Assembly: GCF_001403875.1 (NCBI RefSeq)
Contig: NZ_LN884299.1
Span: forward strand, 620,001-684,000
Length of the DNA stretch: 64,000 nucleotides
Source of the DNA: Paenibacillus ihumii
GTDB lineage: Bacteria; Bacillota; Bacilli; Paenibacillales; Paenibacillaceae
Reading direction: 5' to 3'
The notes beneath the pieces are model-generated. The model was not told the origin of the DNA. It was given only the letters and a program-made list of their open reading frames with translations, and searched no databases. Below, in pieces: positions 4,199-7,140 of this stretch. Position numbers and translations under genes: made by a program. The first letter of the stretch is position 1, and each line of letters opens with the position of its first letter.

Positions 4199-5392
4199 AT
4201 GATTTATACAGACTGGATTTACTGGCTGTTCGTGCTCGTGGCTGTCGTCACGTACCACATTATGCCGCACCGAATCAGACCCTGGGTACTGTTCGCCGCA
4301 GGCGTCACCTTTTATTACTACTACGCAGGCTCCTATCTGTTCCTGCTGCTGGCGGAGGTCGTTATAGCGATTCTTATCGTCAAGGCCGCAGCCAAGTGGA
4401 GTAAACGCTGGATTTACCCCGCTGCGATCATCGGGGTCATTCTCGTGCTCGGTTATTTCAAGTATACGAATATGCTGCTGGATACGCTGAATGATTTGTT
4501 CGCCTTCATGCAGCAGCCCTTCTTCCCCAAGGCGGAGCAAATCGTCCTTCCTTTAGGGATTTCTTATTTTACTTTCGAGCTCATTCATTATTTGGTTGAA
4601 CGCAAGCGTGGAAATTTGCCGGAGCATAGACCGGAAGGACTTCTGTCCTTTATCTTTTTTTTTCCGACGATGGTCGCCGGTCCGATTAAGCAGTTCCAGG
4701 TGTTCTACCCGCAGCTCAAGGCGAAATTCCATATCGACCACATTCTGGTCGGGGTGACCCGGATCGGGTTCGGTATGTTCAAAAAGCTGGTGCTGGCCGG
4801 TTCAATCGATCTGCTCGCCCAGCCGGTATACTCCAAGGCGGGAATTGCCGGGGCCGATACCGGAACACTGTGGATCTCGCTGATCGCCTATACGTTTGTC
4901 ATTTACTTTGATTTCTCAGGCTACTCGGACATTGCGATCGGTACAGCGCGCCTGTTCGGCATCGTCATTCCGGAGAACTTCCGGTTCCCATACCTTGCCC
5001 GCAGCATTGCCGAGTTCTGGAACCGGTGGCATATCTCGCTTGGCTCCTGGCTTACCCGCTATGTGTATTTCCCGCTCGGGGGCAGCCGCGTTCCGGCCCC
5101 AAGGGTCTACCTGAACCTGATGGCTACGATGACCGTATCCGGGCTCTGGCACGGAGCAGCCTGGAATTTCGTCGTCTGGGGAATGTTCCACGGAGTCATG
5201 CTGTGCATCCATCGCTTCCATGTGAAGCAGATCAAGCCGAAATTAAAGCCCGTTCCCAAATGGCTGAAGCCGGGAACGACGTTAATCGCCATTCTGATCA
5301 CCTTCTTCGGCGTCACCATCAGTCGGGTGTTCTTCATCCTGCCGATCGTCGACGGATGGGATCTCATGCTGCGATTGCTGGGCTTACGCTAA
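4199..5392 (+). CDS. MBOAT family O-acyltransferase (AlgI/PatA type)
   Basis: Polytopic membrane-bound O-acyltransferase of 397 aa that passes an acyl group from the cytoplasmic side across the membrane for modification of a surface polymer. Family marks are in order: LPLGISYFTFELIHY, FFPTMVAGPIKQF, FDFSGYSDIAIG, FWNRWHISLGSWLTRYVYFP with the first conserved His, and SGLWHGAAWNFVVWG with the catalytic His. The YFPLGG segment is typical of AlgI-like enzymes rather than of DltB. It starts at ATG 4199 with a weak ribosome site. Two genes follow at short spacing: an SGNH-type protein and a DltX-like microprotein. No dltA or dltC homologue is in the window, so the acyl donor is unknown (acetyl-CoA is the usual donor for AlgI types). 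Confidence 0.88.
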   Translation: MIYTDWIYWLFVLVAVVTYHIMPHRIRPWVLFAAGVTFYYYYAGSYLFLLLAEVVIAILIVKAAAKWSKRWIYPAAIIGVILVLGYFKYTNMLLDTLNDLFAFMQQPFFPKAEQIVLPLGISYFTFELIHYLVERKRGNLPEHRPEGLLSFIFFFPTMVAGPIKQFQVFYPQLKAKFHIDHILVGVTRIGFGMFKKLVLAGSIDLLAQPVYSKAGIAGADTGTLWISLIAYTFVIYFDFSGYSDIAIGTARLFGIVIPENFRFPYLARSIAEFWNRWHISLGSWLTRYVYFPLGGSRVPAPRVYLNLMATMTVSGLWHGAAWNFVVWGMFHGVMLCIHRFHVKQIKPKLKPVPKWLKPGTTLIAILITFFGVTISRVFFILPIVDGWDLMLRLLGLR

Positions 5393-5423
5393 AATAGCTT
5401 AGAACGAAAGTGAGGATTTATTG

Positions 5424-6584
5424 ATGCCTAATTTATTCATGAACAAGACGGTTACCGTCATGATGGTCTCGCTTGCCATTGCAGGCTTGATCGGAATTAG
5501 CGACGGAGCAAGCCCGATTGTCAATCATATGCAGGAGGATGTCGTAACCCATGCCAAAAAGGAGCTGCGCGTGCCAGCTTACGACTCCATCGTTTATACG
5601 CCGCTGTGGATTGAATATTTAAAGCAGCAGCCTGATGACGGGAAGCAGGTCGTCGGCTTGTTCGGACCTTCCACTGTCTACGGCACGACCGTAATGAAAG
5701 GGGCCAACACCTCTGCCGGCGTGCTTCAGGTTCATCTCAAGGACAAACGCGTCCTCAACATGGGGCTTACGGGCGGCAGATTTACGGAGACTTATGCCGT
5801 GCTCGCCTCGATGATTGACGAAGTCGATTATGTCGTCTATGAGATCAACTACGGGATTGCCGTCGTCTCGGATAACGAGCCTAACGTTACTGTGTACCCG
5901 TCTCTCATAACGAAGCTCGATCAGAATATTCCGCGGAGCTGGCTGAACGATTTTCCAGATAAGAATCGCCAGTCGCTTCCAAGCGACATCCATAACTGGG
6001 CCACGTCCAACTTCCTTAGCAAATGGACGCTGTACCATGATCGCGACGTCATCAGCTACAAGCTGTTCAAGACGCGTACCCCGATGGAGAAAATCCGCCG
6101 GGAAATCAAAAAAGAGCAGGACAAGAAGAATGGCGTGACGCCAAGCTACGCACCGATGTACACGGCATACGAGAAAATGCAGGACAAACATAAGGAAGAG
6201 ATCAACAATCACTTTAAGCAGCTCTACGTATGGAACAAGCCGTTTGACAAAGACAGCAGCTTCGGCCTGTTCATGATCGGGAAGACCCTGGATCTGCTGC
6301 AAGAGCACAACAAAAAGGCCGTCTTCTATTCCGCTCCGCTGGATAAGGAGCATATCAACAAGAAGAAGCTGTTGAATTGGGAAGACTACAACAAAGTAAT
6401 GGGAGCCTACCAGGAGCTGATCGAATCCAGGGGCTATACGTACATCGAGTTCAACAAAGGGACGAATAACACGATCCCGCATAAATTTTATCGCGATCCG
6501 TCCCATATGCTGGATGAAGGCAATAAAATGTTCGGCGAAATTCTCTATAAGAAGTTGACACAATATGGAATTACAAACTCGTAG
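5424..6584 (+). CDS. SGNH-like exported acyltransferase partner of the MBOAT protein
   Basis: A 386-aa protein with an N-terminal signal anchor (residues about 8-25) and an extracellular domain. SGNH-hydrolase blocks can be read: the nucleophile Ser in LFGPSTVYGTT, the oxyanion Gly block NMGLTGGRF, and the C-terminal Asp-His pair in DPSHMLDEGN. Such proteins receive the acyl group and place it on the polymer, as DltD, AlgX/AlgJ or PatB do; this one lacks the DltD-type GSSE motif. The start is ATG 5424, seven bases after TGAGGA. It lies 31 bp after the MBOAT gene, and its end overlaps the next gene. The target polymer (teichoic acid, peptidoglycan or exopolysaccharide) cannot be told. Confidence 0.78.
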   Translation: MPNLFMNKTVTVMMVSLAIAGLIGISDGASPIVNHMQEDVVTHAKKELRVPAYDSIVYTPLWIEYLKQQPDDGKQVVGLFGPSTVYGTTVMKGANTSAGVLQVHLKDKRVLNMGLTGGRFTETYAVLASMIDEVDYVVYEINYGIAVVSDNEPNVTVYPSLITKLDQNIPRSWLNDFPDKNRQSLPSDIHNWATSNFLSKWTLYHDRDVISYKLFKTRTPMEKIRREIKKEQDKKNGVTPSYAPMYTAYEKMQDKHKEEINNHFKQLYVWNKPFDKDSSFGLFMIGKTLDLLQEHNKKAVFYSAPLDKEHINKKKLLNWEDYNKVMGAYQELIESRGYTYIEFNKGTNNTIPHKFYRDPSHMLDEGNKMFGEILYKKLTQYGITNS

Positions 6585-6750
6585 CGCCAAGCTTGCCAGA
6601 ACAAAAGCCAATCGCCTCAGTCATCGTGTCGGCCGAGCACTGATGATGCTGGGGACAGCCATCGGCGGAGCCATCGTCATTATAGCGATCGTTATAGGAA
6701 TCTTGTTCTTCTCCGGCGAGACGCAGGAATTTATTTATATGAATTTCTAA
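6565..6750 (+). CDS. DltX-like single-span microprotein with C-terminal acyl-shuttle motif
   Basis: A 61-aa protein with a basic N-terminus, one transmembrane helix (about residues 27-50) and the C-terminal hexapeptide FIYMNF. This fits the F-x-Y-x-x-F end of DltX. In the Dlt pathway the tyrosine of that motif accepts the acyl group from the MBOAT protein and hands it to the serine of the extracellular transferase. The gene overlaps the SGNH gene by 20 bp and ends the operon before a strong terminator. It would be missed by length filters. What is seen is the motif, the helix and the position; the shuttle role is inferred from DltX. Confidence 0.8.
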   Translation: MELQTRSAKLARTKANRLSHRVGRALMMLGTAIGGAIVIIAIVIGILFFSGETQEFIYMNF

Positions 6751-6811: not shown

Positions 6812-6858
6812 ATAATGGGCTTGCCCTGCTCCTTTTCGAGCAAGGGAGCCCATTTTTT
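6812..6858 (+). terminator. rho-independent terminator of the acylation operon
   Basis: Arms aatgggct and agcccatt, extended by an imperfect inner stem around a cttttc loop, are followed by TTTTTT. It lies 62 bp after the microprotein gene. Confidence 0.85.
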
Positions 6859-6869
6859 ATTACAGATTA

Positions 6870-7140
6870 GCTAGTTTGGTCATTCGTTTAGTATGGACAT
6901 TCGCTTAGTTGGTCATTTGCCTAGCCGCGGTTCCATTGCAAATATCGCAAGTAATATAGATCTCAGGGACATTGGCAATATGGCGAGTGCGGCGAATATG
7001 GCGAGGACCTGAAGGCGTGAGGGCGCGAGGCGGCAAGTTCACGAGTGCAGCGAGGGCGTGAGGGCGTGAGGACGCGAGGACGCAAGTACACGAGGGCATG
7101 AGTCGACAAGTTCACGAGTGCAGCGAAGGCGCCGGTATGG
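6870..7140. repeat. degenerate tandem repeats
   Basis: Two arrays lie side by side. The first (about 6875-6925) has three copies of a roughly 18-bp unit like ttggtcattcgtttag. The second (about 6990-7140) is built from gagggcgtgag/gaggacgcgag words and contains a 20-bp direct repeat, caagttcacgagtgcagcga, at 7034 and 7107. No gene is supported here. Confidence 0.65.

Follow-up and report, generated by a model that had tools for sequence, protein, structure and literature searches.

Can an MBOAT acyltransferase and an SGNH protein be joined by a separate shuttle microprotein outside the Dlt pathway? This question is raised by three adjoining genes in a stretch of 64,000 nucleotides from Paenibacillus ihumii (contig NZ_LN884299.1, positions 620,001 to 684,000 of the forward strand), hereafter the window. 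As described in a 2025 study of PatAB (PMC12148441), DltX carries D-alanine between DltB and DltD in the Dlt pathway; PatA uses acetyl-coenzyme A (acetyl-CoA) to acetylate the Tyr in the hexapeptide at its own C-terminus, and PatB accepts the acetyl group from an acetyl-Tyr hexapeptide. The same study states that MBOAT/SGNH pathways other than Dlt have neither a carrier protein nor a DltX-like microprotein. The P. ihumii trio, with 16 relatives in other classes, is a counterexample to the microprotein half of this rule as it is worded there (PMC12148441). On the strength of sequence comparison and analogy, we consider that the trio probably forms a self-contained three-part transmembrane acyl-Tyr relay, in which the MBOAT would pass an acyl group to Tyr58 of the microprotein, thence to Ser83 of the SGNH protein and on to an envelope polymer.

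The initial annotation of the window had described an MBOAT gene, an SGNH gene and an overlapping open reading frame (ORF) of 61 amino acids ending FIYMNF. The called ORFs agree, all on the plus strand, and the locus reads as follows.

4199..5392, + strand: MBOAT acyltransferase gene, 397 amino acids, no fused shuttle motif, match to PF03062
5424..6584, + strand: DltD-like SGNH gene (ATG start), 386 amino acids, N-terminal hydrophobic anchor
6565..6750, + strand: DltX-like single-span microprotein gene, 61 amino acids, ends EFIYMNF
6730..6747, + strand: C-terminal hexapeptide FIYMNF with the candidate acyl-carrying Tyr58, conserved in 30/30 loci
6565..6584, + strand: overlap of the SGNH and microprotein genes, 20 nucleotides, from the ORF coordinates
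about 6817..6858, + strand: predicted intrinsic terminator 3' of the microprotein gene (fold of -26.3 kcal/mol, z -4.87, equalled by 0 of 200 shuffles)

An alternative TTG start just upstream, at 5421, gives an SGNH protein of 387 amino acids. The three genes make up one apparent operon, which the terminator would close, and the 20-nucleotide overlap suggests translational coupling; the overlap is 20-23 nucleotides in the 24 loci whose microprotein is listed with a standard start. A promoter scan upstream of the MBOAT gene stayed at chance level (3 found, 3.6 expected).

The argument depends first on whether the microprotein is real and its tail maintained. Hydrophobicity peaks at residues 31-49, forming a single span, with a positively charged N-terminus before it (7 K/R against 1 D/E in 28 residues) and a short, acidic tail after it (2 D/E, no K/R). 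The microprotein stands alone among 614 window ORFs of 25-130 amino acids in ending F.Y..F, and in the loci of the wider census described below such an ending is carried by 34 of 6270 short ORFs, 32 of them DltX or separate microproteins at split loci. A chance ORF, which we also considered, is ruled out by this rarity and by conservation. When 394 Paenibacillaceae genomes were searched for the SGNH protein, 30 carriers were found in 6 of 19 genera, and at every one of these loci the next or overlapping ORF has the ending F-I-Y-M-[N/D/K/R]-F, with an MBOAT ORF upstream of the SGNH gene. Positions -6, -5, -4, -3 and -1 of the tail (F, I, Y, M and the final F) are identical throughout, position -2 is N in 27 loci and D, K or R in one each, and the codons for F, I, Y and the final F (-6, -5, -4 and -1) vary synonymously across loci. 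The ratio of non-synonymous to synonymous substitution rates against the window is 0.03-0.17 (eight pairwise comparisons, overlap excluded). The microprotein and its last six residues, on whose persistence in orthologous operons the initial annotation had staked its proposal, are thus kept, with -2 the only variable position. We can reject the idea that a fused MBOAT is falling apart here, since the break is the same at all 30 loci and purifying selection acts on it.

The N-terminal part of the microprotein is variable, and almost gone in two loci (L069 and L070), but conservation is found outside the hexapeptide at E52 and the F48-F49 pair. This would suit an explanation in which the microprotein serves as an assembly or stability factor, its tail being conserved for binding, and the acyl group goes from the MBOAT to the SGNH protein directly. 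We hold this to be very unlikely, as the invariant Tyr stands in the exact hexapeptide of an acyl shuttle and, in the census below, the microprotein exchanges strictly with a fused motif that has been shown to carry acetyl in PatA (PMC12148441).

Within the family the trio travels as a unit. All 20 loci with species names retain the microprotein; their carriers include Paenibacillus bouchesdurhonensis, P. fonticola, P. woosongensis, P. dendritiformis, P. lactis, P. popilliae, P. assamensis, Cohnella kolymensis and a record labelled Neobacillus mesonae, and the nearest named relative at the locus is P. bouchesdurhonensis, whose SGNH protein is 94% identical. The MBOAT and SGNH genes are the only ORFs of at least 100 amino acids common to the window and all 20 named loci, the next cluster reaching 9, and for this reason we regard the trio as a stand-alone cassette. 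A profile of the microprotein found 6 matches in 246 genomes of the order, all of them trio carriers, and the SGNH profile, applied to the order outside the family, gave two weak matches only (expectation values (E) of 1e-6 and 9e-6), beside fused MBOATs (L211 and L212).

How much of the Dlt or PatA machinery can be recognised in the two larger proteins? The MBOAT belongs to the MBOAT superfamily, scoring 93 bits with PF03062 (cut-off 27), and reaches 177.6 bits against TIGR04091 (DltB), below the cut-off of 375. Its C-terminus, LRLLGLR, holds no motif and 0 residues of extension; in the tree alignment, the residues past this end number 67-92 in fused proteins (median 76), 0-6 in split ones and 0-1 in DltB. 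His278 (nucleotides 5030-5032) and His318 (nucleotides 5150-5152) are both found in 60 of 60 non-DltB rows of the same alignment, and the latter, which lies in the conserved motif SGLWHG, is the candidate catalytic residue, the role that this His has in the family. A second MBOAT in this genome is hinted at by a weak match alone (35 residues with a stop), which 12 fused queries did not support.

No Pfam or NCBIfam family matches the SGNH protein, and PF04914 (DltD) matches nothing in this genome. The N-terminal hydropathy of the protein is that of a hydrophobic membrane anchor, and Ser83, Asp358 and His361 lie in the expected motifs (GPST and DPSH), invariant across 26 SGNH rows. An AlphaFold model made from 26 relatives (predicted local distance difference test (pLDDT) 78, predicted template modelling score 0.81) was compared with known structures. 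The eight best Foldseek matches are all DltD chains (E 3.5e-6 to 1.2e-5, template modelling scores 0.40-0.49); across all the comparisons with DltD structures these scores are a modest 0.40-0.51, and VIA-align gave its longest whole-chain alignment with DltD 6o93 (Z 15.8 across 288 residues). On this model the SGNH partner most closely resembles DltD in overall fold. The core alone aligns with simple SGNH esterases (E. coli TesA entries) at Z 16.8 over about 170 residues, slightly above DltD, and so good a match would be expected if the SGNH protein mainly removed acyl groups or moved them between polymers, the MBOAT and microprotein serving some other acceptor such as a lipid or a small glycoside. 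We rate this as the least probable of the explanations weighed here. Against it stand the whole-chain alignment with DltD, the position of the MBOAT ahead of the SGNH gene at all 30 loci, the distribution in the genus Paenibacillus, where a close MBOAT and the SGNH gene occur in the same 7 of 40 genomes, and the SGNH genes of one family found beside all 14 split MBOATs checked in other classes. The near-identical rows L046, L047, L050 and L052 were left out of the SGNH and MBOAT family alignments, the latter also lacking the cut L068, and L046 and L047 were left out of the microprotein alignment.

Beyond the family, we used the MBOAT alignment to search 348 genomes of the phylum, of which 96 had MBOATs. 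The resulting census holds every MBOAT match except the window's own, together with L211 and L212 from the SGNH-profile search, i.e., 147 MBOAT ORFs at 144 loci, some with flanks of 1.5 kb only. The calls were 112 fused (the MBOAT ORF itself ends F-x-Y-x-x-F), 17 split, 7 dlt with DltX, 4 dlt without DltX seen, 6 neither and 1 weak. One split call, L255, was moved to neither because its ORF of 35 amino acids lies 1.8 kb away and has no evident membrane span (its MBOAT, of 480 amino acids, ends without the motif). The 16 that remain are in 16 genomes of other classes, under seven family codes. Their MBOATs have 392-428 amino acids, no motif of their own and 31-39% identity to that of the window; their microprotein ORFs have 36-80 amino acids, end FIYxxF (tails include FSTGGETPFIYTNF) and overlap the MBOAT gene or lie at most 170 nucleotides from it. 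The 14 SGNH genes mentioned above were those checked with longer flanks (L195-L208, with L160 and L161 left out), and their products align with the Paenibacillus SGNH proteins at an hhalign probability of 99.7 over 302 columns (13 rows, the short L207 ORF of 228 amino acids being excluded). The gene order is mostly SGNH-MBOAT-microprotein, and MBOAT-microprotein-SGNH in L205-L207. No extra microprotein fitting the strict pattern was found in the sequence stretch around any of the 112 fused MBOATs; fused motif and separate microprotein are mutually exclusive in the census. The initial annotation had proposed a hybrid with a separate shuttle, to be sought in other genomes. As genomic anatomy, i.e., a short MBOAT without motif extension and a conserved microprotein supplying the motif, the hybrid holds, and the trio was found across Paenibacillaceae (30 loci) and in other classes (16 genomes, with the SGNH gene in 14 of 14 checked).

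Does a Dlt pathway nonetheless stand behind the trio? The profiles used at the loci themselves were built from 20 dlt loci, which they recover by construction, the independent positives being L213 and L214; DltA was searched for genome-wide in the genome of the window, and DltC in 46 split genomes. In the window, neither dltA nor dltC has a profile match beside the trio. Elsewhere in the genome, where a full dlt operon was looked for and not found, DltD, DltX (PF12459) and DltC gave no match at E up to 0.001, and the best DltA match had 311 bits where the cut-off is 560. The strongest adenylation matches fall within open frames of more than 1000 amino acids, which are taken to be non-ribosomal peptide synthetases (NRPS). 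PF12459 matches 0 times in this genome, against 39 of 250 genomes of the class. The 20 named loci (L090-L109) gave no dltA match; across the other-class split loci L195-L208, the best DltA match is an AMP-ligase of 61 bits at L205/L206, and a DltD-like match of 24 bits is the SGNH gene of L198. DltC passes the cut-off in none of the 46 split genomes, and PF04914 in one (G1022, where it finds the trio's own SGNH protein with 28.5 bits against a cut-off of 22.7). The absence of dltA and dltC claimed at the outset was thus upheld beside the trio, and, at the cut-offs used, in the genome.

Several observations weigh against the relay as we propose it. The microprotein is not a member of PF12459, being unlisted at E up to 1 in a search whose HMMER filters discard most weak matches, and hhalign aligns the Paenibacillus microproteins with DltX over 8 columns at a probability of 33%, which is not significant beyond the tail. 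The MBOAT structure model is only moderate (pLDDT 68), with DltB (6bug/8jem) as its best Foldseek match. Neighbouring genes, in the window and at the named loci, name neither donor nor polymer. Lastly, four closely similar named loci (L097-L099 and L107) have a carrier-like ORF with a dltC match of 27-28 bits about 3.6 kb upstream of the MBOAT, and weak DltC matches below the cut-off occur in 12 of the 46 split genomes (best 40.5 of 52.35 bits), so that the donor may yet be a carrier protein.

These last two observations would also speak for a reduced Dlt system, in which a distant adenylating enzyme, with a carrier encoded elsewhere (e.g., parts of NRPS), would furnish D-alanine or some other amino acid for delivery to lipoteichoic acid. 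The SGNH fold most like DltD, the separate DltX-like shuttle and the numerous adenylation domains of this genome fit such a system too, and the tree discussed below leaves room for the Paenibacillus group to join the DltB stem. We think it unlikely. The counts for DltC and DltD in the split genomes oppose it, as do the lack of a DltC match, and of DltA over the cut-off, in this genome, and the MBOAT itself falls under the DltB cut-off and lies across a branch of 100/99 support from DltB.

The kinship of the microprotein with DltX is better judged through the other classes. Run against the 6270 short ORFs at E up to 1, the Paenibacillus microprotein profile returned only 10 other-class microproteins and 9 DltX. 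By hhalign, Paenibacillus and other-class microproteins align over 23 columns (probability 88) and other-class microproteins and DltX over 36 (probability 95). From these alignments it is plausible that the Paenibacillus microprotein is homologous to DltX via the other-class group; the shared tail by itself would also explain its matches to DltX. If the relay reading is right, the microprotein would work like DltX.

Under that reading, the MBOAT would be charged by a thioester in the cytoplasm, most likely acetyl-CoA or else a different acyl-CoA, and would pass the acyl group through its channel onto Tyr58 in the extracellular FIYMNF of the microprotein. The microprotein would hand it to Ser83 of the membrane-anchored SGNH protein, which would then esterify a cell-envelope polymer. 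The acyl-Tyr step, the acyl-Ser step and the direction of transfer we infer by analogy with DltBXD and PatAB. Acyl-CoA as donor is a guess, and the simplest choice because there is no DltC. The idea that a polymer is acylated, and one other than teichoic acid, goes back to the initial annotation, where it was an inference, as it is here; that the acceptor may be the polymer of a secondary cell wall, or some other polymer that is not teichoic acid, is a further guess, prompted by the Gram-positive PatA1B1 cited in PMC12148441.

The tree of MBOATs (84 rows, 375 columns, C-terminal extension removed, no trusted root) bears on how separate and fused shuttles are related. Branch supports are 100/99 for DltB, 98/97 for the fused MBOATs, 97/98 for the other-class split group and 100/99 for the Paenibacillus split group; DB_L220 and SC_L208 are long rows. 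The group of the window MBOAT lies outside the fused side and, as noted, away from DltB. The label 'AlgI-type' given to this MBOAT at first therefore stands in part: at 30-36% identity (mean 33.8) it is closer to the fused AlgI-type MBOATs than it is to DltB, with which it shares 22-28% (mean 24.7), but the tree places it outside both the fused clade and DltB. The approximately unbiased test does not reject a tree that unites all split rows (p value 0.441), and the position of the Paenibacillus split group next to DltB has a support of 51/38. On this tree a single change separates split from fused MBOATs; with DltB as outgroup, the separate shuttle would be the older state. We tentatively suggest, at somewhat less than an even chance, a third MBOAT-SGNH architecture, probably carrier-free and acyl-CoA-fed, with a separate acyl-Tyr shuttle and spread over several classes, the separate shuttle being perhaps original and the fused AlgI/PatA form having arisen from it via one fusion.

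How does the trio compare with known systems? Like Dlt, it has a separate single-span microprotein ending F-x-Y-x-x-F, a short MBOAT without extension and a membrane-anchored SGNH protein with a DltD-like modelled fold. Unlike Dlt, it is not accompanied by DltA or DltC in the window, neither passes its cut-off in the genome, its MBOAT is split off from DltB by the well-supported branch, its microprotein is unmatched by PF12459, and its gene order is MBOAT-SGNH-microprotein, whereas the 20 dlt loci have a DltX-like ORF ahead of dltA and dltB. With PatA-PatB and other AlgI-type systems it shares an MBOAT with an SGNH protein, the F-x-Y-x-x-F motif, the conserved His and, in the described cases, the lack of a carrier; it differs in having the motif on a separate gene, where theirs sits on an MBOAT extension of 67-92 residues. 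The other-class split loci share the short MBOAT, the microprotein within 170 nucleotides and, in the 14 checked, a homologous SGNH protein, and differ in gene order and in the divergence of their MBOATs. A surface search of the open literature found no description of a separate-shuttle trio outside Dlt. A 2023 study reportedly defined the DltX motif and may mention such loci. Annotation easily misses the microproteins because they have mostly 36-62 amino acids. In a three-protein system with no DltA or DltC nearby, the shuttle can be swapped, mutated or supplied as a peptide, and the trio allows us to ask whether the kind of donor (carrier or CoA) and the form of the shuttle (separate or fused) vary independently. 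How the shuttle evolved also becomes testable, split and fused being one change apart on the tree.

Other arrangements were met in the census. At five loci (L307, L310, L312, L314 and L318), a DltA-like AMP-ligase of about 500 amino acids (277-308 bits) lies near an MBOAT with its own motif or the PIYxGF variant, the reverse of the hybrid described here. ORFs of 74-80 amino acids just upstream of the MBOAT in L310, L312, L314, L317 and L318 are candidate carriers, with a Pfam match in L312 and none in L310, L314, L317 and L318. These reverse hybrids may contradict the other half of the rule in PMC12148441, by which such pathways have no carrier. Variant MBOAT ends are PIYAGF (L307 and L316), PIYGGF (L314), YIYAGF (L257) and YAFFKL (L313); L323 is cut at a contig end, and L325 and L326 are fragments or unlike the rest.

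Among the dlt loci, the DltX of L182 begins its motif with Y and was thus missed by the strict pattern. In L184, a second DltX-like ORF ending QEFIYSEF (1274-1432) lies about 300 bp ahead of the regular dltX, and the operons L213 and L214 have a DltX-like ORF at the dltD end, overlapping as called, and not ahead of dltA. The dlt operon L321 has a single DltB with three DltD-like ORFs (300-350 bits) about it, and no strict-motif DltX was seen. On an Enterobacter cloacae plasmid (L220; NZ_CP071862.1, IncFIB, IncHI1A), a dlt-like set lies between insertion sequence (IS) elements and consists of DltD, an ORF of 40 amino acids ending FEYQKF, an MBOAT, an AMP-ligase and a carrier; its MBOAT forms a very long branch beside DltB.

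At the other-class loci, 19 of the 20 neighbours scanned have a family, most of them housekeeping, and the polymer is not indicated. A polysaccharide pyruvyl transferase upstream of the trio in L199 (10606-11682) is a possible hint of a secondary cell wall polymer, and a PMT_2 glycosyltransferase adjoins the trio in L198; either is too little for a claim. In the window, the trio is flanked upstream by genes for an aldo/keto reductase, an NAD(P)-binding protein, a TM2 protein and a protein-glutamine gamma-glutamyltransferase, and downstream by genes for a family-4 glycosidase, an AraC regulator and an RDD protein, all unrelated in appearance. Past the operon, at 7001-7098, two tandem copies of 49 bp lie in a purine-rich stretch.

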